Of a DNA stretch of 64,000 nt, positions 27,945 to 38,424 are shown piece after piece. The stretch is taken from NCBI RefSeq assembly GCF_007860105.1, contig NZ_SJPU01000002.1:857739-921738 (forward strand). Reading direction: 5' to 3'. A model generated the notes under the pieces. That model was given only the letters and a program-made list of their open reading frames with translations, was not told the DNA's origin and did no database searches. Source of the stretch: Allorhodopirellula heiligendammensis (GTDB lineage Bacteria; Planctomycetota; Planctomycetia; Pirellulales; Pirellulaceae). How positions within the stretch are numbered: the first letter of the stretch is position 1; each line of letters opens with the position of its first letter. The position numbers and the translations under genes were made by a program.

Positions 27945-30728
27945 TCACTCTCGTTTTGACGGGACTGCCGTGACCGCTTGGGGGCTAGCAGCCATCAGCG
28001 ATTCGATAACTTGTGCGAGCTGCTCGGGACCGCCAGCAATTTTGACGTACGTGTGTTTCCCATCTGCGTCTTTCTTCCACGTTGTCAAGCCTTGGTCGTT
28101 GATAACCACTTGGCCGCCGGTGATGGTTTCCCAGTGGCTGGGGTCGGCTCCTCGCACGGCGAACAACGCTGCCGCTTGATCGTAGCTTGGTTTGCCGCGA
28201 TCGATCGACATCCTTCCTGCGTGCGGCCTCAACTCATAAGCTCGCCGAACGGGGTTTTTCCTTGACACCTGTTTTAACCCAGCGCCCGTAACGAGGACGT
28301 TACCGACTTCAAAACCATGCCAGACGATACTGCCCGGCCAATGTGCGGCCACGAACTTCGCCGCCTCGGGGTGAGTTGCGATGTTTGCTTCGCGTCGCGT
28401 CGATGTAGGAAATTCACCGCCCATCACGACCAATTGCTTCACTTTTTGCCGAACCAAGTCTGGCTTCCTGCGACACAGTTCAGCAAGATTTGACAGCGCA
28501 CCGACACTGCAGATGGTAACGCTATGGTCGGGTTGCGCGGTCAACGTTCGGCAGTAGGTATCAAATGCATCCTCGGCAAGGTCGTCGGCAACCATGTCGT
28601 TTGGAAACTCGTCACGCAAAGCTGCTGCGTAAGGGCTCGTGCGTTGCAGCGCGGTCGGCCCCTGTTTATCGGTACCAATCGCAATTTCCGGCCGGCCGTA
28701 ATACGTGTTGATTGCATCCACCGCGGCAGCGGATGCGTTGCTGAGGTCCCTCCGATTGGTGACGACAGCAAGCAGTTCGCATTCACCACGGTCTGCGAGG
28801 GCATGCAAGAGCCCCAATGCGCCAGCGTCGTCGCAGTCACCAGACATGTCTGTATCGAAGATCAGCGTTACTGGGGACGCCGCTTCGAGGCGTTCGGCCG
28901 TGACATAATATGCACCTCCAATTTCCTGTCCCTTGCCGTCGCTAAGCCACGTCTGCATTGTCGTCCGTCCCGCGGCCAAAGGCATTTCAAACTTGACCGA
29001 GCGAGCCCCCGCGCTCACGTGCGTGCTCCGCTCCACGTCGCCTACCCGGATCCTCGCAGAGGCGACGTCCCAAGCTGGACCGCTGCTCAGAATGCCATCG
29101 GTCACGCGGGTTTCTCCAATGCCGTCATTGAGCGCCAGTCCTGACTCCTGCGGCCAGCGACTCAGCGTGAAGGAATAGTCTCCTGCAGCTGCAACCTCGA
29201 TATGCCAAAGTCCGTTCTTACGTTCACCTCGCCGTACCTGCGATTGCTGATCAATGAACACATCCGCCCATTCGCAGGCGGTCAGCTGGACCGGATTCTG
29301 CGCATCATGCCCGATCAAAGACGGCTCAAAGTCGTTGGCATGGGCTTGCACGCCGCCCCACCACTCATTGAGATGGGAGCGCATTTTCGCGACAACCTGG
29401 GGATGATGATTGATCACGTTGTGCTGCTGCAGCGGATCTTCTCGTAGGTTGTAGAGTTCGTTGTCGTGGAGTAGCCGCCAATGTTTCCACAAAACTGCTG
29501 CGCCCTCGCGTCGGGGCACTGCTGGGTTGCGCAGCGTGGTACGTACGGTCTTGAACGGCATCCGGCTGTAGTTGATGGTGAGCATGCGTTCGTCCGGCAC
29601 TTCAGACCTGCCTCGCAACACTTCTGCAAGGCTGATCCCATCAAACTTGGTAGCGGCTGGCACCTCGATATCCATCAAATCAGTCAGGGTAGGCAGTAGA
29701 TCTTGAACCTCCGTTAACCCGTCGACATCTCCAGCTGGTCGCAATCCGCCTCCAGGCCAACGAACGAAGCACGGCACACGATGGCCGCCCTCCCACAGAG
29801 TCGTCTTGCCGCCCCGCATGCCCGCATTGAAGTATTTCGGCCCGAAGGTGCTGCCATTATCGGTCATGAAAATAAGCACGGTATTCTCCCGAATCTCTTG
29901 CTCTTCCAGGAATTTCTCCAGCCTTCCCATGTTCTCGTCGATGTTGACGCACATCGCTAGAAACCGAACCAGCTGCTCCTTGGCAGCCGGTTCCAACACC
30001 GGCAACTGATCGGCAACCGCCTCCAACGCCGCTTGGACAGGAGCCAGGTACTGCTCGGGTACGTAATGCGGTTGATGTGCTGTGGCTGTAGCCAAATAGC
30101 AGAGAAACGGGCGTTCCGCGCCGGCCTCCTGCTTCATCCACTGCATCGCTTCATCGAACAGTACATCGGTCGTATAGCCCGTGTATGACTGCCGGGTGCC
30201 GTTGCGAATGTAGGTGTCGTCGAAATAGTCGTTGTTCCATGTGTCTGGAACGGACCCGATATGAGAGGAGGGATACCAGAGGCTCTCCTGGAAGCCGCGG
30301 TCCTGGGGACGGTAGGGGTAGGCGTCACCGAGATGCCACTTACCAAAGAGCCCAGTGCTCCAGCCGGATTCCGCAAACAGGTCTCCCATCGTGGGGAAAC
30401 TCCGACGCAGCAATGTACGTCCGCTGCTGACATTCATCGCACCGTTGCGCAGGGCGTCCACGCCAGTCATCAGTTGGCCTCGCGTGGGGGTACACATCGG
30501 CGCGACATGGAAGTCCGTGAAGCGGATGCTCTCTGAATACAACTGGTCAAGGTGCGGCGTTTGCAGCACGGGATTACCATGACAGGACATCTCGCCGTAA
30601 CCTTGGTCGTCAGTCACGATCACCAGTACATTCGGCTGCGGCGATGGCTGTCCGCTACCGGTGCCAGCGTGAACTGTAGCAAGTGGTGTTAGAAATAATG
30701 TTGCGACTAGTGTCAGTAAAATCTTCAT
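27945..30728 (-). CDS. Secreted sulfatase fused to a nucleoside hydrolase domain
   Basis: 927 residues from the ATG at 30728, which gives a clean signal peptide (ILLTLVATLFLTPLATVHA); the upstream frame to 30827 is unlikely. Residues 30 to about 490 are an arylsulfatase-type domain with metal-binding TDDQGYGEMSCHGNP, the formylglycine site CTPTRG (Cys79), GKWHLG and FMTDNGSTFG. A beta-rich segment follows (about 500-615). Residues 620-927 are a nucleoside hydrolase-like domain with the calcium motif FDTDMSGDCDDAGALG, then GGEF and EANIATHPEAA. Formylglycine conversion needs an enzyme not in the window. Sulfate-ester cleavage and N-glycosidic or related cleavage could be combined on one exported chain; the substrate is unknown. 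Confidence 0.88.
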   Translation of the reverse strand: MKILLTLVATLFLTPLATVHAGTGSGQPSPQPNVLVIVTDDQGYGEMSCHGNPVLQTPHLDQLYSESIRFTDFHVAPMCTPTRGQLMTGVDALRNGAMNVSSGRTLLRRSFPTMGDLFAESGWSTGLFGKWHLGDAYPYRPQDRGFQESLWYPSSHIGSVPDTWNNDYFDDTYIRNGTRQSYTGYTTDVLFDEAMQWMKQEAGAERPFLCYLATATAHQPHYVPEQYLAPVQAALEAVADQLPVLEPAAKEQLVRFLAMCVNIDENMGRLEKFLEEQEIRENTVLIFMTDNGSTFGPKYFNAGMRGGKTTLWEGGHRVPCFVRWPGGGLRPAGDVDGLTEVQDLLPTLTDLMDIEVPAATKFDGISLAEVLRGRSEVPDERMLTINYSRMPFKTVRTTLRNPAVPRREGAAVLWKHWRLLHDNELYNLREDPLQQHNVINHHPQVVAKMRSHLNEWWGGVQAHANDFEPSLIGHDAQNPVQLTACEWADVFIDQQSQVRRGERKNGLWHIEVAAAGDYSFTLSRWPQESGLALNDGIGETRVTDGILSSGPAWDVASARIRVGDVERSTHVSAGARSVKFEMPLAAGRTTMQTWLSDGKGQEIGGAYYVTAERLEAASPVTLIFDTDMSGDCDDAGALGLLHALADRGECELLAVVTNRRDLSNASAAAVDAINTYYGRPEIAIGTDKQGPTALQRTSPYAAALRDEFPNDMVADDLAEDAFDTYCRTLTAQPDHSVTICSVGALSNLAELCRRKPDLVRQKVKQLVVMGGEFPTSTRREANIATHPEAAKFVAAHWPGSIVWHGFEVGNVLVTGAGLKQVSRKNPVRRAYELRPHAGRMSIDRGKPSYDQAAALFAVRGADPSHWETITGGQVVINDQGLTTWKKDADGKHTYVKIAGGPEQLAQVIESLMAASPQAVTAVPSKRE

Positions 30729-30903
30729 CGTTGCCTTCGTGTGCGTTCCGTGGCTGAAATGTTCGCCAGACTCATCAATGTACTCGAACTGGAGTCCTGT
30801 TGTGCCCCACAGGTTCCCCCCTATCAACCTCCCACGCCCCCCGTTTTGAATCGAGTCGGCATCTCCTAAAAGGTGATTTTGCCACCGTGCCCGTGGGACT
30901 CGG

Positions 30904-31674
30904 CTAGTGACGGCGTGGACCGGGAAAAAACGCGTTGGTCCGTTGCACGTATTCGCGATAATCGGGCTTGCTTTTTTGGAGCGATTTCTCTAGCAGCGTC
31001 ACACCTGAAACTCGCATCAGAAAGATTGACATGGTGATCGGACCGATCACCGTCCATGCTGCGTCACTGGTCGCATAGGAAGCAAAAAACAGGCCCCACC
31101 ATACTAGAAAGTCACCGAAGTAGTTGGGATGGCGCGTGTATCTCCATAGCCCCTGGTCGAGTACTTCCCTTTCGTTTCTGGGATCAGACTTGAATCGAGC
31201 CAACTGCCAGTCGCCGATCGATTCGAAGAAAAGTCCGGCTGCGAATAGGAGCATTCCGATCATGCTCGCCCATCGGTGGTGGACTCCAGACTCCTGAAAC
31301 AGGACCTGCAGGGGCAGCGAAACAATCCACATCACGACTGCCTGGACACCGAAAACGGTTACTAAGCTGACCCATGGAAATGAATCGCCCCAATTCGCTC
31401 GCATGTTCCGGTAGCGAGGGTCTTCGCTTTTGCCGTAATTCCGCCAAGCCAGGTACACACTTAAACGGATACCCCACAGGGTTGTCAGGCAGGGCACAAT
31501 CAAGCTGTCACCAGCTTTGGACCGGACGAAGTATGCCGTCCAGGCGACGAGTACGAAACCTAACCCCCAAGCGATATCAACGACACTGACATCTCTGAGG
31601 TAGAGGCTAACCAGCCACATGCTGAACATCAGCAAGCCGATTACCGCGGCGCAGTAGGAAAGACTCATGGCCAT
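30904..31674 (-). CDS. DUF1295 membrane protein (steroid 5-alpha-reductase-like fold)
   Basis: About 257 residues from the ATG at 31674, four bases after the stop of the upstream methyltransferase. Six or seven hydrophobic helices are visible. The C-terminal signature LDQGLWRYTRHPNYFGDFLVWWGLFF is that of DUF1295 and the related steroid reductase and isoprenylcysteine methyltransferase families. Such enzymes reduce double bonds or modify lipids inside membranes with NADPH or SAM. As the last gene of the FAD-DUF1365-CFA operon it may reduce or rearrange a methylated acyl chain. The reaction is not known. Confidence 0.85.
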   Translation of the reverse strand: MAMSLSYCAAVIGLLMFSMWLVSLYLRDVSVVDIAWGLGFVLVAWTAYFVRSKAGDSLIVPCLTTLWGIRLSVYLAWRNYGKSEDPRYRNMRANWGDSFPWVSLVTVFGVQAVVMWIVSLPLQVLFQESGVHHRWASMIGMLLFAAGLFFESIGDWQLARFKSDPRNEREVLDQGLWRYTRHPNYFGDFLVWWGLFFASYATSDAAWTVIGPITMSIFLMRVSGVTLLEKSLQKSKPDYREYVQRTNAFFPGPRRH

Positions 31675-31678
31675 GGTT

Positions 31679-32743
31679 CTACTTTTCAAATAGATAGTGC
31701 GAGACATACCACTCTTGGCCTTCATTGAAGGCAAAGAGTTCTTCGCAAGCCATGAAGAAGATTCGCCATCGATGGAACCAACGTTTGGCGTCGGGACGCC
31801 CGTATGTCTTGGCCAAGATCGGCTGGACAGTCTCGGAGGCGGCGTCCAGGTTACTCAGCCAAGCTCGACAGGTTTTCGCATAGTGGCTTCCGTTCCACGC
31901 CCATCGCTCGGCGACTCGCAATGGACCACCGCAGCGAGGCAACCAGTCGTCGCTGGGCATCATGCCACCAGTGAAAAAGTAACGACCCATCCAATTCTGT
32001 GCCCCATCAATATCAAACAAATAGGGCGTCGTAGCGTGGCAGAATACGTGCACAAACAACTGTCCCTGGGGGCGCAGCCAACGGTCGATCTTCTCCATCA
32101 ATCGGTCGTGGTTACGCATATGCTCAAACATCTCTACAGACACGACGCGGTCAAAGGTCTCGATGGATTCAAAGACATTGATGTCCGCAGTGACAACATC
32201 TAAGTTGGAGATTCTTCGATCTCGCGCTGCCGACTCGATGTAGCGGCGCTGTGAGTTGGAGTTCGACACGGACGTGATCCGACTATTGGGATACCGTTCT
32301 GCCATCCACAGCGATAACGAGCCCCACCCGCATCCGAGCTCAAGGATGCTCATGCCATCGGTGAGCCCGGCATGCGACGCCGTGACTCGCAGTGCGTTTT
32401 CCTCTGCCTCCACGAGCGTTTTGGTATTCGGCTCCCAGTAACTGCAGCTGTACTTTTGTTGTGGGCCCAAGACCTGCTGAAAAAAGCTCGCTGGCACCTC
32501 ATAGTGCTGATCGTTCGCATCATGTGTGCAAACCGCTATCGGCTGAGAGGCGACTTCGGAGCGTAATTTTTCCGCAACTTCATCTGGCCTACGTTGATTC
32601 AAATCGCCGAGCCGGTTGTGAAGCAGGTTGCGAATCCCGCGTCGCACCAGCCAATCAGGCACACGGCCCTGCTCTGCAGCGTCCGACAGTCGCGAGACGA
32701 CGTAGTTGGGGATGGTGGACCAGGCGGACTCCAGCGAATTCAC
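31679..32743 (-). CDS. CFA-family SAM-dependent methyltransferase
   Basis: 354 residues from a GTG at 32743 that overlaps the upstream cfa stop as GTGA; a longer frame reaches 32830. The SAM site is LELGCGWGSLSLWMAERYPN. Residues that bind bicarbonate in Escherichia coli Cfa seem conserved: Cys in YSCSYW, Glu in VEMFEHM and His in LFVHVF. Overall the protein looks closer to the CFA-like group that includes coclaurine N-methyltransferases than to classical Cfa (LGPQQKYSCSYWE, SVSNSNSQRRYI). It probably methylates a lipid or an intermediate of the same pathway. It is the fourth gene of the lipid operon. Confidence 0.85.
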   Translation of the reverse strand: MNSLESAWSTIPNYVVSRLSDAAEQGRVPDWLVRRGIRNLLHNRLGDLNQRRPDEVAEKLRSEVASQPIAVCTHDANDQHYEVPASFFQQVLGPQQKYSCSYWEPNTKTLVEAEENALRVTASHAGLTDGMSILELGCGWGSLSLWMAERYPNSRITSVSNSNSQRRYIESAARDRRISNLDVVTADINVFESIETFDRVVSVEMFEHMRNHDRLMEKIDRWLRPQGQLFVHVFCHATTPYLFDIDGAQNWMGRYFFTGGMMPSDDWLPRCGGPLRVAERWAWNGSHYAKTCRAWLSNLDAASETVQPILAKTYGRPDAKRWFHRWRIFFMACEELFAFNEGQEWYVSHYLFEK

Positions 32744-34050
32744 TCTTGCGTTTTGTCCCAAACAATCTGGACAACTCTGGCGGTGTCTTCGCGGAACGCT
32801 GCTTCGCAGTAACATAAATAATACTCCCACATTCGAATAAAGCGGTCGTCAAAGCCGAGTTTGCGAACTTCGCCGAGTTGATTGAGAAACCCTGCACGCC
32901 AATGCATGAGTGTTTCAGCGTAGTGCCGTGACATGTCGTCGACTGATTGCAATCGAAACGATGTCATGCGACCTGCAGATTGTTGAATTGCAACGATGGA
33001 AGGCAGAAATCCACCCGGGAAAATGTACTTCTGTATGAAGTCGACGCCGCGTCGGTAGGTGTCGTAGCGCTGCTCTGGCATCACGATGGCCTGCATGACG
33101 CACCGCCCGCCAGGTTTGAGTAGTTCGTTGGACTTGCGAAAAAATTCGTCCAAGTGACGCTCTCCGATCGCTTCGATAACCTCGATCGAAACGAGTTTGT
33201 CGTAACGCCCCTCGAGATCACGGTAGTCGCTCGACAACGCTTTGATGCGATTGTTCAATCCAGCGTGGCGGACGCGATCATTTGTCATCTCAAACTGCGC
33301 TGGTGATATCGTGGTCGTTGTGACGTGACAGCCAATATGCTTTGCAGCATAGAGCGAGAATCCTCCCCAGCCAGTTCCAATCTCGAGCACGCGGTCGCTG
33401 GCTTGCAGATCCAGTTTGCCGCAAAGACGTTCAAGCTTGCACAATGATGCTTCATGAAGAGACATGCGGTCGTGCTCAAACCAAGCCGATGAGTACATCA
33501 TGGTGGGATCGAGGAACAACTCAAAGAACGCATTACTGAGGTCGTAGTGAGCTGCGATATGACGTCGGCTACCGCTGCGAGAATTGCTGTCAAACCGATA
33601 ACCTAGTCGACGGAAGTAGCCCGTGATTGCTGACAATCCTGTCTTGAGTGACGAGGTCCGTTCGAGATTGCGGCAGAGAATTTGGATGAAGGTCGTCAGG
33701 TCATCCACCTGCCAGTAGCCGCGCAGATATGACTCAGCAAGCCCGATGGCTCCCTGCGACGCAAGCAGGCTATAAAACGATGGATGATTGACCTGCCATG
33801 AGACGCACAGGGGCGAATCCCACGGCCCAAAAACCTCGCCTGTCTGCGCGTCAGAAAATTGAATCTGCCCGCCCTGCAGCCCTCCAAGCCAATCCATCAT
33901 CTTGCGACGCGTGAAATGTTGCATCCACGTGAACTTCCGAGTCGGTGCGGCATCGTCGTTGATGCGGGAAACCTCCGGTCGCCAGTCCACGTTTGTATAT
34001 TCGGTATCGGTCCCGCTCGACATCGTGTGTGCTCTCAAAACGTCTATCAA
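32740..34050 (-). CDS. cfa: Cyclopropane-fatty-acyl-phospholipid synthase
   Basis: 436 residues from a TTG at 34050 that overlaps the upstream stop as TTGA; an ATG at 34023 would give 427. The N-terminal lipid-binding part (VSWQVNHPSFYSLLASQG, AESYLRGYWQVDDLTTFI) and the SAM site LEIGTGWGGFSLYAAKHIG are typical. Compared with Escherichia coli Cfa as I recall it, the Cys139 position is Ser (MYSSAWF) and His266 is Gln (CVMQAIV), while Glu239 and Tyr317 are kept. The stretch PEQRYDTYRRGVDFIQKYIF resembles plant cyclopropane synthases. It transfers a methylene or methyl group to phospholipid acyl chains at the membrane. Confidence 0.92.
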   Translation of the reverse strand: MIDVLRAHTMSSGTDTEYTNVDWRPEVSRINDDAAPTRKFTWMQHFTRRKMMDWLGGLQGGQIQFSDAQTGEVFGPWDSPLCVSWQVNHPSFYSLLASQGAIGLAESYLRGYWQVDDLTTFIQILCRNLERTSSLKTGLSAITGYFRRLGYRFDSNSRSGSRRHIAAHYDLSNAFFELFLDPTMMYSSAWFEHDRMSLHEASLCKLERLCGKLDLQASDRVLEIGTGWGGFSLYAAKHIGCHVTTTTISPAQFEMTNDRVRHAGLNNRIKALSSDYRDLEGRYDKLVSIEVIEAIGERHLDEFFRKSNELLKPGGRCVMQAIVMPEQRYDTYRRGVDFIQKYIFPGGFLPSIVAIQQSAGRMTSFRLQSVDDMSRHYAETLMHWRAGFLNQLGEVRKLGFDDRFIRMWEYYLCYCEAAFREDTARVVQIVWDKTQE

Positions 34051-34823
34051 GGAGTGGATTTCAGTGGAACTTCGGACGGCCTAGGATGTGGAAATGAAGG
34101 CGTTTTCTTCAGCCACAACCGGAACGCTTGCCAGTAGATCCCGCCGACGACTTGGCCGGTCATGAGGGGAAACCGCAACAATGTTTTTGCAAGTTGGGTT
34201 GGGGTAAGCGGCTTGCGCTTCATCAGCAATGTCGAGTCAAACAGGCAGCCGTCCTGATCGTGGTCCTCAAGATGGATGGAGAGGCTTCGGCCGGGATTAC
34301 TCAGACGCCACTGATACTCGAGATCCATCGGCAGAAACGGTGATACATGGAAAGCTTTTTCGCATCGGTGCCTCTGGACGCGGTGATTGCTTTCCCAAGG
34401 AATGACGTAGCAATGTCGTTCTCGCCAAGGCGTGTTGGTGACCTCGGCGATAACCGCAGCAGGCGATTGACCATCTGCATGAAAGCAATAGTAGAGTGAG
34501 ATCGGATTGAAGACAAAACTCGCATAACGCACATGGGCAAGCATCCGAATTGGTCCATCAAACTCGATACCCGCGTCGGTCTGCACGATCTTCCGAATGC
34601 TGTCGGCGAGTGGTTGGTCTGCCTCCCCGACGTAGTCAGCTCGGTTGTAACGGACGAGACTGAAACGACGAGTCGAAACCAAAGGTGCAGCTCGGAAAAC
34701 CTCGTCCAACTCATCGAGGTCGAGATAGAAAAAAAATAGCGGATAACAGAATTCGTGCGACGTCGTCCGAAAACGCCGATGGCGAATTGATCCTTCATAG
34801 AGACAGCTATGCTGGATGCTCAT
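34047..34823 (-). CDS. DUF1365 protein
   Basis: 258 residues from the ATG at 34823, which overlaps the FAD gene stop as ATGA; the frame is open to 34961. It begins MSIQHSCLYEGSIRHRRF and has the family motifs FCYPLFFFYLDLDELDEVF, YASFVFNPISLYYCF, NTPWRERHCYVIP and AFHVSPFLPMD. DUF1365 proteins are of unknown activity and almost always sit with an FAD oxidoreductase and a cfa gene, as here. In plants a similar region lies between the oxidase and methyltransferase parts of cyclopropane synthase, to my memory. Confidence 0.9.
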   Translation of the reverse strand: MSIQHSCLYEGSIRHRRFRTTSHEFCYPLFFFYLDLDELDEVFRAAPLVSTRRFSLVRYNRADYVGEADQPLADSIRKIVQTDAGIEFDGPIRMLAHVRYASFVFNPISLYYCFHADGQSPAAVIAEVTNTPWRERHCYVIPWESNHRVQRHRCEKAFHVSPFLPMDLEYQWRLSNPGRSLSIHLEDHDQDGCLFDSTLLMKRKPLTPTQLAKTLLRFPLMTGQVVGGIYWQAFRLWLKKTPSFPHPRPSEVPLKSTP

Positions 34824-36127
34824 GGGCGACGTCCTCCTGTCGGCAGCGTTGTCGAGATCCTCGCGGCTCCCTCCGATCCAATGCGCCAATTTGGTATGCC
34901 GAATGCCCGCCCCACGGCCAGACCACTGACGACACCATCTTCGTGAAATCCGTTTCGCCAATAGGCGCCGCAGTACGACGTTCGCCGCCGGCGAATGATC
35001 TCGCTGTGACGCCGCTGAATGACGCTCCGCTCACTCGTAAACAGGGGATGCGAATACTGGAATCGGCCAAGCACCTTCGCCGGATCAATCATATCGTCGG
35101 CATTGAGCGTCACGCACAAGGTGTGAGGTGACTCAATGCGTTGTAATTGATTGAGGTTGTAAGTCACCTGCGGGCGCGTTTCCAGTTCCGCAGGGATGAG
35201 ATAGTTCCAACTCGCCCAGGCACGTTGGCGTCGAGGCAGCACTGACTCGTCCGTGTGCAGCACCGCGGTATTCACACCGTACGGAAAGGCAGACAGCAAT
35301 TCTGTCTCTAGCTCATCGGCGTCTGCTAGAATCTGCAGGGCCTGATCGCTGTGGCAAGCAATGATGACTTCGTCAAAATCCTCCTCGCCGCCTGCGTAAC
35401 GCACCCGGACTTCGTTTTCGAGTCGACTCACACTTCGCACAGGACAACCGCAGCGAATCCGCTCACGAAAAGGCGCGATCAATTTCGCGACATAGCGATG
35501 TGATCCACCCACAACCGTTCGCCACACGGGACGATTGGTTAAGCTAAGCAGACCGTGATGATGGTAGAAATCGAGAATGAAACGAATTGGAAAGTCTGCG
35601 AATGACTCCCGCGGACATGACCAGATCGCGGCTCCCATGGGCAATAAATAGCGATCTGCAAACGCTCGCGAGTATCTGCCGGCGGCGAGATAGTCACGAA
35701 CCGTTTGGTCGTCCGAGACGTGGTCAATGTCACGAGGTCCATTGCGATTGAAGCGAACGATATCCGCCAACATCCTCAGGAACGAAGGACGCAGAGCGTT
35801 TTGACGCTGGGCAAAGAGTCCATTGATCGAGGTGCCATTGTATTCCGTGTTGGACCGGTCGCAGCGAACGCTAAAACTCATCGAGGAAGGTGAGGTTTCG
35901 ACGTCGAGGTCGTGGAGCATCTGCGCGAAAACAGGATAGGTGCGATCGTTGTAGACAAGGAATCCGGTATCGAGATCGTGCCGCTCATTTCCGACCTCCA
36001 CACTGACGGTATGGGCGTGACCGCCGACATGGTTAGACGCTTCGAAGACGGTGATTTGATGCTCACCGGACAGGATTCGGGCGCACGTTAGGCCCGAAAT
36101 CCCCGATCCGATGATAGCAATTCGCAC
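34820..36127 (-). CDS. FAD-dependent oxidoreductase (amine-oxidase fold) of a cfa operon
   Basis: 435 residues, GTG start at 36127. The N-terminal dinucleotide site is RIAIIGSGISGLTCARIL (2-19), then VFEASNHVGGHAHTV. A further family stretch is HDLDTGFLVYNDRTYPVF. Toward the end AYWRNGFHEDGVVSGLAVGR binds flavin in homologs. It is the first gene of a five-gene operon with DUF1365, two CFA-family enzymes and DUF1295. Related gene sets are controlled by RpoE/ChrR in Rhodobacter sphaeroides. The likely role is oxidation or reduction of a methylated unsaturated acyl chain; this is inferred. Confidence 0.9.
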   Translation of the reverse strand: MRIAIIGSGISGLTCARILSGEHQITVFEASNHVGGHAHTVSVEVGNERHDLDTGFLVYNDRTYPVFAQMLHDLDVETSPSSMSFSVRCDRSNTEYNGTSINGLFAQRQNALRPSFLRMLADIVRFNRNGPRDIDHVSDDQTVRDYLAAGRYSRAFADRYLLPMGAAIWSCPRESFADFPIRFILDFYHHHGLLSLTNRPVWRTVVGGSHRYVAKLIAPFRERIRCGCPVRSVSRLENEVRVRYAGGEEDFDEVIIACHSDQALQILADADELETELLSAFPYGVNTAVLHTDESVLPRRQRAWASWNYLIPAELETRPQVTYNLNQLQRIESPHTLCVTLNADDMIDPAKVLGRFQYSHPLFTSERSVIQRRHSEIIRRRRTSYCGAYWRNGFHEDGVVSGLAVGRAFGIPNWRIGSEGAARISTTLPTGGRRP

Positions 36128-36289: not shown

Positions 36290-36351
36290 CACGTAGCAGC
36301 GTCTCTCCGAGACGCTGAGAGTTGCGAGTCTCGGAGAGACTCGCCTACGTG
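36290..36351. repeat. REP-like nested palindrome in the divergent promoter region
   Basis: Two palindromes lie side by side: AGCGTCTC-TCC-GAGACGCT (36298-36316) and GCGAGTCTC-GGA-GAGACTCGC (36324-36344). Their cores are reverse complements of each other, and CACGTAG and CTACGTG flank the whole, so about 60 bases can fold into one long imperfect hairpin. It sits in the roughly 390-bp gap (36128-36520) between the FAD operon and the sigma factor gene. No clear -35/-10 pair could be assigned in this gap. Confidence 0.65.
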
Positions 36352-36520
36352 AGTTATACCGAAACATTTCCCCCGACCTGCTTAGAAGCGGTTTCGTTAA
36401 CGCACAGGTCAGCCCTATGCCGCACCTCAACGGGCAGTTTCGCGAGCCCGGTTGTCGAGCGTCTCGGCTCACCCAGTCAGCAGACCGGAGACGACATCTT
36501 CAATTTTTTTGCTGGTCATT

Positions 36521-37450
36521 GTGAGGGCTTCTGTTACAAACACGGAAATTGCTCGTAGCGAACACCAACCAGCGACTGAGACTGCCGTGGCTGACGCCGA
36601 AATCCCGTTCATACCGCATGCCGACTTTGAGTCGGCGCACGAGCAGGATTTTGCCGAGATTGACTGCGCACTTTACGTCGAGGAAGACGATCGCGCGGTT
36701 GGCGACGTTGGCCACGCGGCAGCTAATTTTCTAACGGCGGTAGAGGAATGTCGGATTCTGACTTTCGAAGGGGAGCAGTTTTTATTCAAGCGGCTCAATT
36801 TCCTTCGGTTTCGAGCTCACGCGCTCACCGCAACCTTGCGCAACCAGCGACGACCCCGCAAGACGCAAGCCGAGATTGGGCGCTTGCTCGATGAAGCCAA
36901 TGACACCCGAGAGGAAATCGCACGGTCCAATCTCCGTCTGGTCTCGTTCGTGTGCCGCAAAATCTCATCATCGAGCGATGAATTTGATGAGTTTGTCGCC
37001 GAAGCGAATCCGATCCTGCTCAATGCGATTGATAAGTTTGACTTCAGTCGCGGTTACCGCTTCAGTACCTATCTGACCCATGCTGTCCAACGGCATATCG
37101 CTCGATTGATTGGTCGCGCTTGCAAACGCAGGTCGCATGAATTGAGCGATGGCAATGAAACACTTTACTGGGCCGCTGCCACGGTGGACTCGGATCAGCC
37201 GTCGGCTGCGGATCTACTCGCTGCGGCCACCGTTGTACTGAAGGAGATGGACGAGGTTCTTGATGCTCGCGAGTGTTTTATTGTCCGCGGGCGGTTTGGA
37301 TTGGACGGTTCCGAGAAGGGGAAATCCCTGCGTGCGTTGGGTGACGAAGTTGGAATTAGTAAAGAGCGAGCGAGGCAAATCCTTTATCAGAGTTTGGAGA
37401 AACTCGCCAAAGTCGCCCAGCCGTTCGAATCCATGTTCGCAGTGAAATAG
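36521..37450 (+). CDS. RNA polymerase sigma factor, sigma-70 family (non-ECF)
   Basis: About 309 residues from a GTG at 36521; the frame continues to a TTG at 36452, so the start is uncertain. Region 1.2-like sequence (LTFEGEQFLFKRLNFLRFRA) is followed by a long helical spacer. Region 2 contains RSNLRLVSFVCRKI and IDKFDFSRGYRFSTYLTHAV. Region 4 ends in ISKERARQILYQSLEKL. The usual DLIQEG of region 2.2 reads EFVAEANPILL, which is divergent. It looks like a group 3 or planctomycete-specific sigma factor. It is divergent from the lipid operon and two bases upstream of a redox protein gene, so it may control them; no anti-sigma gene is visible. Confidence 0.85.
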   Translation: MRASVTNTEIARSEHQPATETAVADAEIPFIPHADFESAHEQDFAEIDCALYVEEDDRAVGDVGHAAANFLTAVEECRILTFEGEQFLFKRLNFLRFRAHALTATLRNQRRPRKTQAEIGRLLDEANDTREEIARSNLRLVSFVCRKISSSSDEFDEFVAEANPILLNAIDKFDFSRGYRFSTYLTHAVQRHIARLIGRACKRRSHELSDGNETLYWAAATVDSDQPSAADLLAAATVVLKEMDEVLDARECFIVRGRFGLDGSEKGKSLRALGDEVGISKERARQILYQSLEKLAKVAQPFESMFAVK

Positions 37451-37452
37451 TC

Positions 37453-38424
37453 ATGAATTACCAACCGAAGAACTGGATGAAGTACGTTCTGCTCGCCGCA
37501 GCAGTCTACAATTTTGTGTGGGGAGTGATCGCCGTCTTCATGCCCACGTCGATGCTCGGATGGTTTGGACTGCAGCCCTCGGCGACCGAGGCCGTCTTTT
37601 GGCAATGCATTGGCATGATTGTCGGCGTGTTCGGCGTCGGCTTTTTGATCGCAGCGACCCATCCCTACCGACACTGGCCAATCGTACTGGTGGGCTTTCT
37701 AGGAAAGCTATTTGGCTTGGTAGGGTTTGCCGTCGCGTTGTCATCTCATGCTTTACCAGCCCAATTCGGTTGGGTGATATTGACCAATGATATCGCCTGG
37801 CTCGTTCCTTTCACAATCATTTTGTGGGGTGCTGTCCTACATGATCATGCGGCCGGGTCTGCCTACGACACCCCGGAGGCTGACGTGCCCCTCCAGGACC
37901 TGCGAACGAATACGGGCAGAACGATGGATCGACTCGCCAGCGAGCAAGCTCAGATGGTGGTGTTCTTGCGACATTCGGGCTGCACGTTTTGCCGTGAGGC
38001 ACTCGCTGAAATATCCTTACGACGAAATGAGATTGAAGCCGCTGGCTGCGGAATTGTCTTGGTCCACTTGGGCGCGGGCGATGGTAGGGAGTTTTTCGCT
38101 CAATACGGCATGGACGACGTGCCGCGAATCTCCGACCCGCAGTGCCGGCTCTATCGCCAGTTCGGGCTCGATCTTGGCGATTTTCGGCAACTGTTCGGCA
38201 TGCGGGTGTGGATACGTGGCATCGTGGCTGGCTTGCTGCACGGTCATGGACTCGGGTGGCCGCAGGGAAATTCCTTCCAGATGCCGGGCGTGTTCACCTA
38301 TTATCAAGGTCAAGTGATCGAGGGTTTTCAGCACGACCAAGCCTCGGATCGGCCAGACTATGTCGAACTGGCCAAGCGGTCGAGCCGGCCAAGTCCAGTG
38401 GCGAAGGCCGTCGAGATGGCGTGA
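37453..38424 (+). CDS. Membrane protein with C-terminal peroxiredoxin-like (PRXL2/SelL-type) domain
   Basis: 323 residues. Four hydrophobic segments occupy about 10-130 (YVLLAAAVYNFVWGVIAVFM, IGMIVGVFGVGFLIAA, IVLVGFLGKLFGLVGFAVAL and WLVPFTIILWGAVL). A thioredoxin-fold domain follows from about 165 with VVFLRHSGCTFCREALAEI (Cys177 and Cys180) and later GNSFQMPGVFTYYQGQVI, as in AhpC/TSA-type PRXL2 proteins, where some homologs carry selenocysteine. It probably handles thiol or peroxide redox at the membrane. It starts two bases after the sigma factor stop, implying one transcript. Confidence 0.8.
   Translation: MNYQPKNWMKYVLLAAAVYNFVWGVIAVFMPTSMLGWFGLQPSATEAVFWQCIGMIVGVFGVGFLIAATHPYRHWPIVLVGFLGKLFGLVGFAVALSSHALPAQFGWVILTNDIAWLVPFTIILWGAVLHDHAAGSAYDTPEADVPLQDLRTNTGRTMDRLASEQAQMVVFLRHSGCTFCREALAEISLRRNEIEAAGCGIVLVHLGAGDGREFFAQYGMDDVPRISDPQCRLYRQFGLDLGDFRQLFGMRVWIRGIVAGLLHGHGLGWPQGNSFQMPGVFTYYQGQVIEGFQHDQASDRPDYVELAKRSSRPSPVAKAVEMA

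Follow-up and report, generated by a model that had tools for sequence, protein, structure and literature searches.

Five genes in one operon

From the analysis of 64,000 nt of the Allorhodopirellula heiligendammensis genome (Planctomycetota; NZ_SJPU01000002.1, positions 857,739 to 921,738; in the following called the window), we delineated an operon of five genes. Together they look like a complete set for making furan fatty acids, which reside in membranes and scavenge reactive oxygen, with a further membrane protein that resembles a reductase. In the direction of transcription, the operon encodes a protein dependent on flavin adenine dinucleotide (FAD), a DUF1365 protein, a Cfa-type enzyme, a second Cfa-like enzyme and a DUF1295 membrane protein (Table 1). 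An earlier interpretation made from the letters alone (the sequence-only reading) had described these genes, joined by three overlaps and one short gap, as an operon for lipid-tail modification that includes two distinct Cfa-family enzymes. Re-reading confirmed its extent, strand and all junctions. The stop of the FAD gene and the start of the DUF1365 gene share ATGA (34823-34820), the DUF1365 stop and the first Cfa start share TTGA (34050-34047), and the first Cfa stop and the start of the second Cfa-like gene share GTGA (32743-32740). A 4-bp gap (aacc) then precedes the DUF1295 start at 31674. The two Cfa-family enzymes were likewise recovered, by Pfam (CMAS twice) and by homology; both are CMAS proteins, but the second is of the FufM/coclaurine N-methyltransferase type and is no true Cfa.

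Judged by homology, the FAD protein would correspond to UfaD, the DUF1365 protein to UfaO, the first Cfa to UfaM and the second Cfa-like protein to FufM, one by one. We therefore use these names in the following. It is highly likely that the operon produces furan fatty acids carrying methyl groups, most probably two, as part of membrane lipids. A furan fatty acid was among the products proposed in the sequence-only reading, and the match of genes 1 to 4 to furan enzymes fits that proposal. The same match contradicts the suggestion of an undescribed pathway, as these four genes belong to one that is already published (PMC7380195). The new part of the finding is DUF1295 as a recurrent partner of the furan genes.

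Table 1 Features of the operon and its upstream flank.
Feature	Position	Strand	Basis
Whole operon, five genes	30904-36127	minus	Open reading frames and Pfam
UfaD-like FAD-dependent fatty acyl desaturase, 435 amino acids	34820..36127	-	Pfam Amino_oxidase, 90 bits
UfaO-like DUF1365 protein, 258 amino acids from ATG 34823	34047..34823	-	Pfam DUF1365, 264 bits
UfaM-like fatty acyl methylase, 436 amino acids (TTG 34050) or 427 amino acids (ATG 34023)	32740..34050	-	CMAS, 275 bits
FufM-like methylase, 354 amino acids from GTG 32743	31679..32743	-	CMAS, 141 bits
DUF1295 integral membrane protein, 256 amino acids, "type 2" subfamily	30904..31674	-	Pfam DUF1295, 239 bits
Inverted repeat of 40 bases with arms of 12-13 bp, between operon and sigma factor gene	36301-36340		
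Sigma-70 family factor, divergent from the operon	36452..37450	+	Sigma70_r2 and r4
Redoxin-like protein, hydrophobic N-terminal part (by eye)	37453..38424	+	AhpC-TSA_2, 20.9 bits (cut-off 27)

Match to the furan fatty acid enzymes

Lemke et al. 2020 (PMC7380195) showed furan synthesis by UfaM, UfaD, UfaO and FufM, with its steps and their order, by experiments on Rhodobacter sphaeroides and Rhodopseudomonas palustris. According to that report, UfaO carries DUF1365, the ring oxygen comes from O2, FufM adds the second methyl group in R. palustris CGA009, and the reconstructions yield mono- and dimethyl furans without added DUF1295. A Halomonas UfaM homologue was described to yield 11-methyl-octadec-12-enoate in Escherichia coli (PMC12089945).

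As references we used the proteins of R. palustris JSC-3b, which were reached through the FufM alignment. Homologues of UfaD (40% identity over 433 columns), UfaO (34% over 265) and UfaM (42% over 344) are all present in the window's genome, as is the FufM homologue required for the dimethyl form (48.5% over 338 columns; clade support 100/100). The DUF1295 proteins share 34.5% identity over 200 columns. In JSC-3b, UfaD, UfaO and UfaM adjoin, and FufM lies elsewhere, directly behind an overlapping DUF1295 gene. From homology and gene context, the following steps and their order can be proposed. UfaM would methylate an unsaturated acyl chain with S-adenosylmethionine (SAM) as donor, and UfaD would convert the resulting methyl-branched alkene to a conjugated diene. 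UfaO would then insert one oxygen from O2 and close the furan ring, and FufM would add the second methyl group. As the fifth protein, DUF1295 would play an accessory role in the membrane, with a reductase fold, and act on the furan lipid or on the product of its oxidation.

To characterize the first Cfa, we read positions 139, 239, 240, 266, 268 and 317 in the numbering of E. coli Cfa (6bqc). The window protein has SEAQIY, as does R. palustris UfaM, versus CEHHIY in three solved Cfas and in five further CMAS proteins. Other genomes of the phylum contributed 27 rows, one of them truncated; the remaining 26 have S, C or A ahead of EAQIY (13 S, 9 C and 4 A). All 39 UfaM rows compared from plasmids and named loci, as well as four further rows from genomes read together with JSC-3b, have S or A at this place and then EAQIY. 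In this whole comparison, one gene stands in two groups (L159 = L169). In a tree of 44 CMAS rows, the 31 EAQ rows, including those of the window and R. palustris, formed one clade (100/97), apart from eight Cfas (a group supported by only 85/58) and five FufMs (100/100).

The catalytic bicarbonate of Cfa is held by side chains of Glu239, His266 and Tyr317 (PMC11387697). In the first Cfa of the window, Glu239 and Tyr317 are kept and His266 is Gln. The alignment thus agrees with the earlier observation of Cys139 to Ser and His266 to Gln in the first enzyme and of retained Cys, Glu and His in the second. Of these two changes, only His266 to Gln is general in the UfaM group; residue 139 is Cys in 9 of the 26 readable phylum rows. 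Cys139 was therefore rejected as the key change, as the residue varies inside the UfaM clade. Loss of the His266 base would offer a simple reason for the formation of a methyl-branched alkene instead of a ring. Gln at 266 together with Ala at 240 provides a sequence rule to tell UfaM-type proteins from true Cfas in genomes where both carry the annotation cyclopropane synthase. L208 (G000:C2:1949211-1950080), the third CMAS gene of the genome, encodes one of the five further proteins reading CEHHIY. Since it keeps all canonical Cfa residues, the organism may make cyclopropane lipids as well.

The UfaO-like protein is the proposed O2-using, furan-forming enzyme. It had no sequence relative in the PDB set up to an E-value of 1. 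Its predicted model (predicted local distance difference test (pLDDT) 93) is a beta barrel with two C-terminal helices, and its fold matches were weak and to barrels, with nitrobindin (2a13) the most plausible (probability 0.97, TMq 0.34, E-value 0.049). Across 51 rows, the residues without any variation include His15, Arg17, Asn106, Pro107, Thr131, Tyr139, Lys156 and Ser161-Pro162-Phe163. Gene 4, the proposed second methylase of the furan ring, has the coclaurine N-methyltransferase 6gkv as its best solved relative (E-value 2.3e-64). Among the fetched proteins it was nearest to FufM, within the FufM clade of five rows.

The window's genome has 37 places that match PSD1, a family typical of planctomycetes, versus none in 14 control genomes, in line with its placement in that phylum. 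We then counted the five genes in a sample of 199 genomes of the phylum, with neighbors less than 5 kb apart regarded as one cluster. DUF1365 occurred in 56 genomes, FufM in 53, UfaM in 56 (of 58; G105 and G198, with Cfa-like rows only, were dropped), UfaD in 59 (of 64; G018, G037, G065, G133 and G191 were dropped for weak or short rows) and strong DUF1295 in 60 (of 89; best or joined rows of at least 69 bits, genomes with weak matches dropped). Second, Cfa-like CMAS rows of six further genomes were omitted from the counts. UfaO was found in 55 of the 56 UfaM genomes and in 52 of the 53 FufM genomes. All five genes were present in 51 genomes, 46 of which hold them in one cluster. The order UfaD-UfaO-UfaM-FufM-DUF1295 (D-O-M-F-X) occurs in only five genomes including the window's, and D-O-M-X-F was the most common (19 genomes). 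Conservation, which the sequence-only reading had named as a test of its proposal, thus applies to the set but not to the exact order. For the gene set, as for the residues, the outcome favors that reading.

In genome G064, which lacks FufM, a single frame of 656 amino acids (L185:5094-7061) encodes a fusion of UfaO with UfaM. Next to this fusion lie UfaD, a type-2 DUF1295, DUF2177, a DCC1-like redoxin and a SOUL heme-binding protein. DUF2177 as a general cluster member in the phylum was unsupported (1 of 56 UfaO genomes). SOUL genes co-occur with UfaO (24 of the 56 UfaO genomes versus 10 of the 143 others), but of 35 places just that in G064 and, loosely, that in G079 (by eye) lie near a cluster, and SOUL was rejected as a general member as well. 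In proteobacterial clusters, genes of the lipocalin and chalcone-isomerase families recur (L069, L070, L071, L072).

DUF1295 and its association with the furan genes

In the phylum sample, DUF1295 accompanies FufM in 52 of the 53 FufM genomes and shares one cluster with it in 48, on opposite strands in four of these. On plasmids, DUF1295 was found in all 44 FufM records (E-value of 1e-60 or lower against the Shinella protein), with no more than 180 bp between the matched parts. Among the best 80 of at least 590 named FufM loci, DUF1295 is adjacent on the same strand in 65. Where DUF1295 precedes FufM in plasmids and named loci, a 4-base overlap is the most common junction (35 of 69).

Of 59 plasmid records with DUF1295, 15 are not among these FufM records. 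In five of these, from three Streptomyces, Legionella lytica and one Phyllobacterium, UfaO lies 1.5 to 3.9 kb away. Of the other ten, one has UfaO at a distance of 95 kb and nine have none among the matches listed. Two Streptomyces plasmids show the order D-O-M-X and the L. lytica plasmid shows D-O-M-DUF2878-X, both without FufM in the stretch. The Phyllobacterium record has UfaD and UfaO beside genes for a sigma factor, ChrR, a hydrolase and DUF1295. The FufM-free clusters of Streptomyces, L. lytica and G064 led us to reject the idea that DUF1295 is tied to FufM alone. Ten proteins encoded next to DUF1295 genes that are free-standing or from G064 offered no shared clue. In the furan lipid clusters of one Mesorhizobium, of two Streptomyces and of the Phyllobacterium (L074, L209, L211, L212), the direct neighbor of DUF1295 is an alpha/beta hydrolase gene, perhaps encoding a lipase for oxidized chains.

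In phylogenetic trees, the window's DUF1295 and those of the four other genomes with the same gene order group with the free-standing, Streptomyces and G064 copies. This "type 2" is split with 100/100 support from the DUF1295 that pairs with FufM in Proteobacteria and in further genomes of the phylum, although the bootstrap of one tree was not fully settled. Because the window's protein belongs to another subfamily than the usual FufM partner, the simplest interpretation is that different subfamilies probably entered this slot on more than one occasion. A less simple alternative is an ancient linkage that was later lost in the lines with free-standing DUF1295.

The literature adds two observations. 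A list of SAK1-dependent singlet-oxygen genes of Chlamydomonas includes genes annotated as CFA1, CFA2, DUF1365, DUF1295 and DUF2177; CFA2 is named coclaurine N-methyltransferase elsewhere in the same paper (PMC4067076). In R. palustris CGA009, a deletion strain was built for RPA0923, a gene beside fufM, which appears in the cloning section of PMC7380195, whose Results and Discussion give no result for it. Going by the place of DUF1295 in JSC-3b, RPA0923 is probably the DUF1295 gene. In a limited search, the titles and abstract openings of papers naming DUF1295 announced no function for it.

The sequence-only reading had expected a reductive step, and the predicted fold (pLDDT 94), nearest to steroid 5-alpha-reductase, is in line with this. 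Pfam also reported Steroid_dh (35.8 bits, cut-off 22.6). The best solved match of the DUF1295 profile was PbSRD5A (7c83, E-value 3.9e-7), followed by human SRD5A2 (7bw1) and ICMT at equal E-values, AtTam46 and sterol reductases. Foldseek also placed PbSRD5A first (TMq 0.59, probability 1.00, E-value 0.018), with no match under 0.001. The model resembles AtTam46 (8xku chain G) as well, from an entry of the Arabidopsis Ycf2-FtsHi motor complex. These matches suggest that DUF1295 is likely a membrane reductase.

Because UfaM, UfaD, UfaO and FufM suffice in the published work, DUF1295 is probably dispensable for synthesis and acts after it, perhaps on oxidized furan lipids. Singlet oxygen opens the furan ring to an ene-dione, and a 1,4-diketone can re-close to a furan. 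A bolder, rather doubtful possibility is that DUF1295 is an NADPH-dependent membrane ene-reductase that recharges the opened lipid. It would reduce the ene-dione to the saturated 1,4-diketone, from which the furan would close back. Such recharging would explain why DUF1295 is dispensable for synthesis, its likeness to enone reductases, the two subfamilies in one slot and the singlet-oxygen induction of the Chlamydomonas DUF1295 gene. If true, the antioxidant lipid could be reused rather than spent.

Alternatives, flanking genes and known systems

Several observations speak against a dimethyl furan operon with DUF1295 as a functional partner. Both the product and the furan pathway are predictions from the genes. 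The reference proteins come from JSC-3b, neither from CGA009, the strain of the published tests, nor from R. sphaeroides, and the identities are 34-49%. Three of the 199 genomes have UfaD, UfaO and UfaM without FufM or a strong DUF1295. DUF1295 lies elsewhere in the genome in 4 of the 53 FufM genomes and is absent in one fragmentary genome, and 6 of the 60 genomes with strong DUF1295 have none of the other four genes. The sigma factor divergent from the operon was assigned only as far as the sigma-70 family, and membership of the ECF11-ChrR kind would be conjecture. Finally, because cotton GhCPS1 carries Ser139 and Gln266 and still makes cyclopropane in yeast (PMC3132707), the residues alone do not exclude a ring product. 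It is conceivable on this ground that the first Cfa makes cyclopropane, like the plant synthases with an N-terminal FAD domain, with the other genes modifying the ring; GhCPS2, which also carries Ser139, likewise gave cyclopropane in yeast (PMC3132707). We consider this very unlikely, as the protein falls inside a clade of UfaM homologs adjoining UfaO and UfaD, as UfaO was missing from only one of the genomes counted for UfaM, and as the genome has the separate canonical CMAS L208. Moreover, Agrobacterium genes for an FAD oxidase and a Cfa-like protein, co-expressed or fused, gave no cyclopropane in yeast (PMC3132707).

Another way to account for the second Cfa-like gene would be a pathway that ends at the monomethyl furan, with gene 4 encoding an amine N-methyltransferase like its best solved matches, coclaurine and related N-methyltransferases from plants. 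This appears most improbable, given that FufM of R. palustris CGA009 methylates the furan according to PMC7380195, that its JSC-3b relative, 48.5% identical, shares a clade with the window protein and that nearly all FufM genomes also have UfaO. Less improbable, but still unlikely, is that DUF1295 is a hitch-hiking membrane gene without a part in furan lipid metabolism. It was not among the genes needed in the published reconstructions of mono- and dimethyl furans (PMC7380195), and it is missing near FufM, within the stretch, in 15 of the best 80 of at least 590 named loci. The coupling, however, recurs with differing gene orders in the window's phylum, in Alpha-, Beta- and Gammaproteobacteria and in Streptomyces. 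Two DUF1295 subfamilies occupy the same slot, and for DUF2177 the 199 genomes revealed no link of this kind. We favor the prediction of a dimethyl furan pathway with DUF1295 as an accessory protein.

The sigma factor gene next to the operon may set its transcription, as suggested by its position. Its homologs flank the operon's 5' end in G121 (56% identity; divergent, as in the window) and, upstream on the same strand, in G181 (33%) and G048 (29%). The redoxin-like protein has homologs beside the operon in G121 (59%) and weaker ones in G025 (36%) and G042 (40% over 115 amino acids). The pattern of the inverted repeat has three exact copies in the genome, versus none of a reversed control. In six of the eight proteobacterial FufM plasmid records opened, genes for a sigma-70 and an anti-sigma factor lie near, the latter named ChrR in four; sigma and anti-sigma genes also occur in the Phyllobacterium record, and one of two Streptomyces plasmids has a pair with SigK, an extracytoplasmic function (ECF) sigma factor. 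SigmaE-ChrR is the singlet-oxygen system that includes furan genes in its core regulon, and singlet oxygen destroys furan fatty acids (PMC6852236). On the other side of the operon (27945-30827, minus strand), a single frame of 960 amino acids encodes first a sulfatase domain and then an inosine-uridine nucleoside hydrolase domain. A homolog of the sulfatase part (56%) lies beside the operon in G181.

With this analysis, dimethyl furan fatty acids are predicted for the window's phylum, and DUF1295 is singled out as a recurrent partner of an antioxidant pathway. A limited literature search found no paper joining planctomycetes and furan fatty acids. Compared to the pathway of R. sphaeroides and R. 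palustris, the window has all four enzyme families and the UfaD-UfaO-UfaM adjacency seen in JSC-3b, but as part of a single overlapping five-gene operon in another phylum. Its DUF1295 follows FufM and is of another subfamily, whereas that of JSC-3b precedes FufM. The UfaM-like enzyme shares with E. coli Cfa the CMAS fold family, the use of SAM and the residues Glu239, Ile268 and Tyr317, but differs in Gln for His266 and Ala at 240. The predicted membrane helix fold of DUF1295 resembles that of steroid 5-alpha-reductases, and the profile alignment pairs an Asp and an Asn-x-x-x-Glu stretch, but identity is just 16% over the structural match with its Foldseek E-value of 0.018. The domain set equals that of the plant FAD-Cfa fusions and DUF1365 proteins (cotton CPS; AtUFAMD1, AtUFAO1 and AtFUFM1), for the Arabidopsis members of which a furan role on lipid droplets has been proposed (PMC10940516). 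The view of FAD-DUF1365-Cfa as a split plant layout is right in that plants fuse FAD and Cfa (cotton; Arabidopsis AT3G23510), which are separate in the window, but DUF1365 is a gene of its own in plants, too (AT1G30130; PMC10940516 for Arabidopsis).

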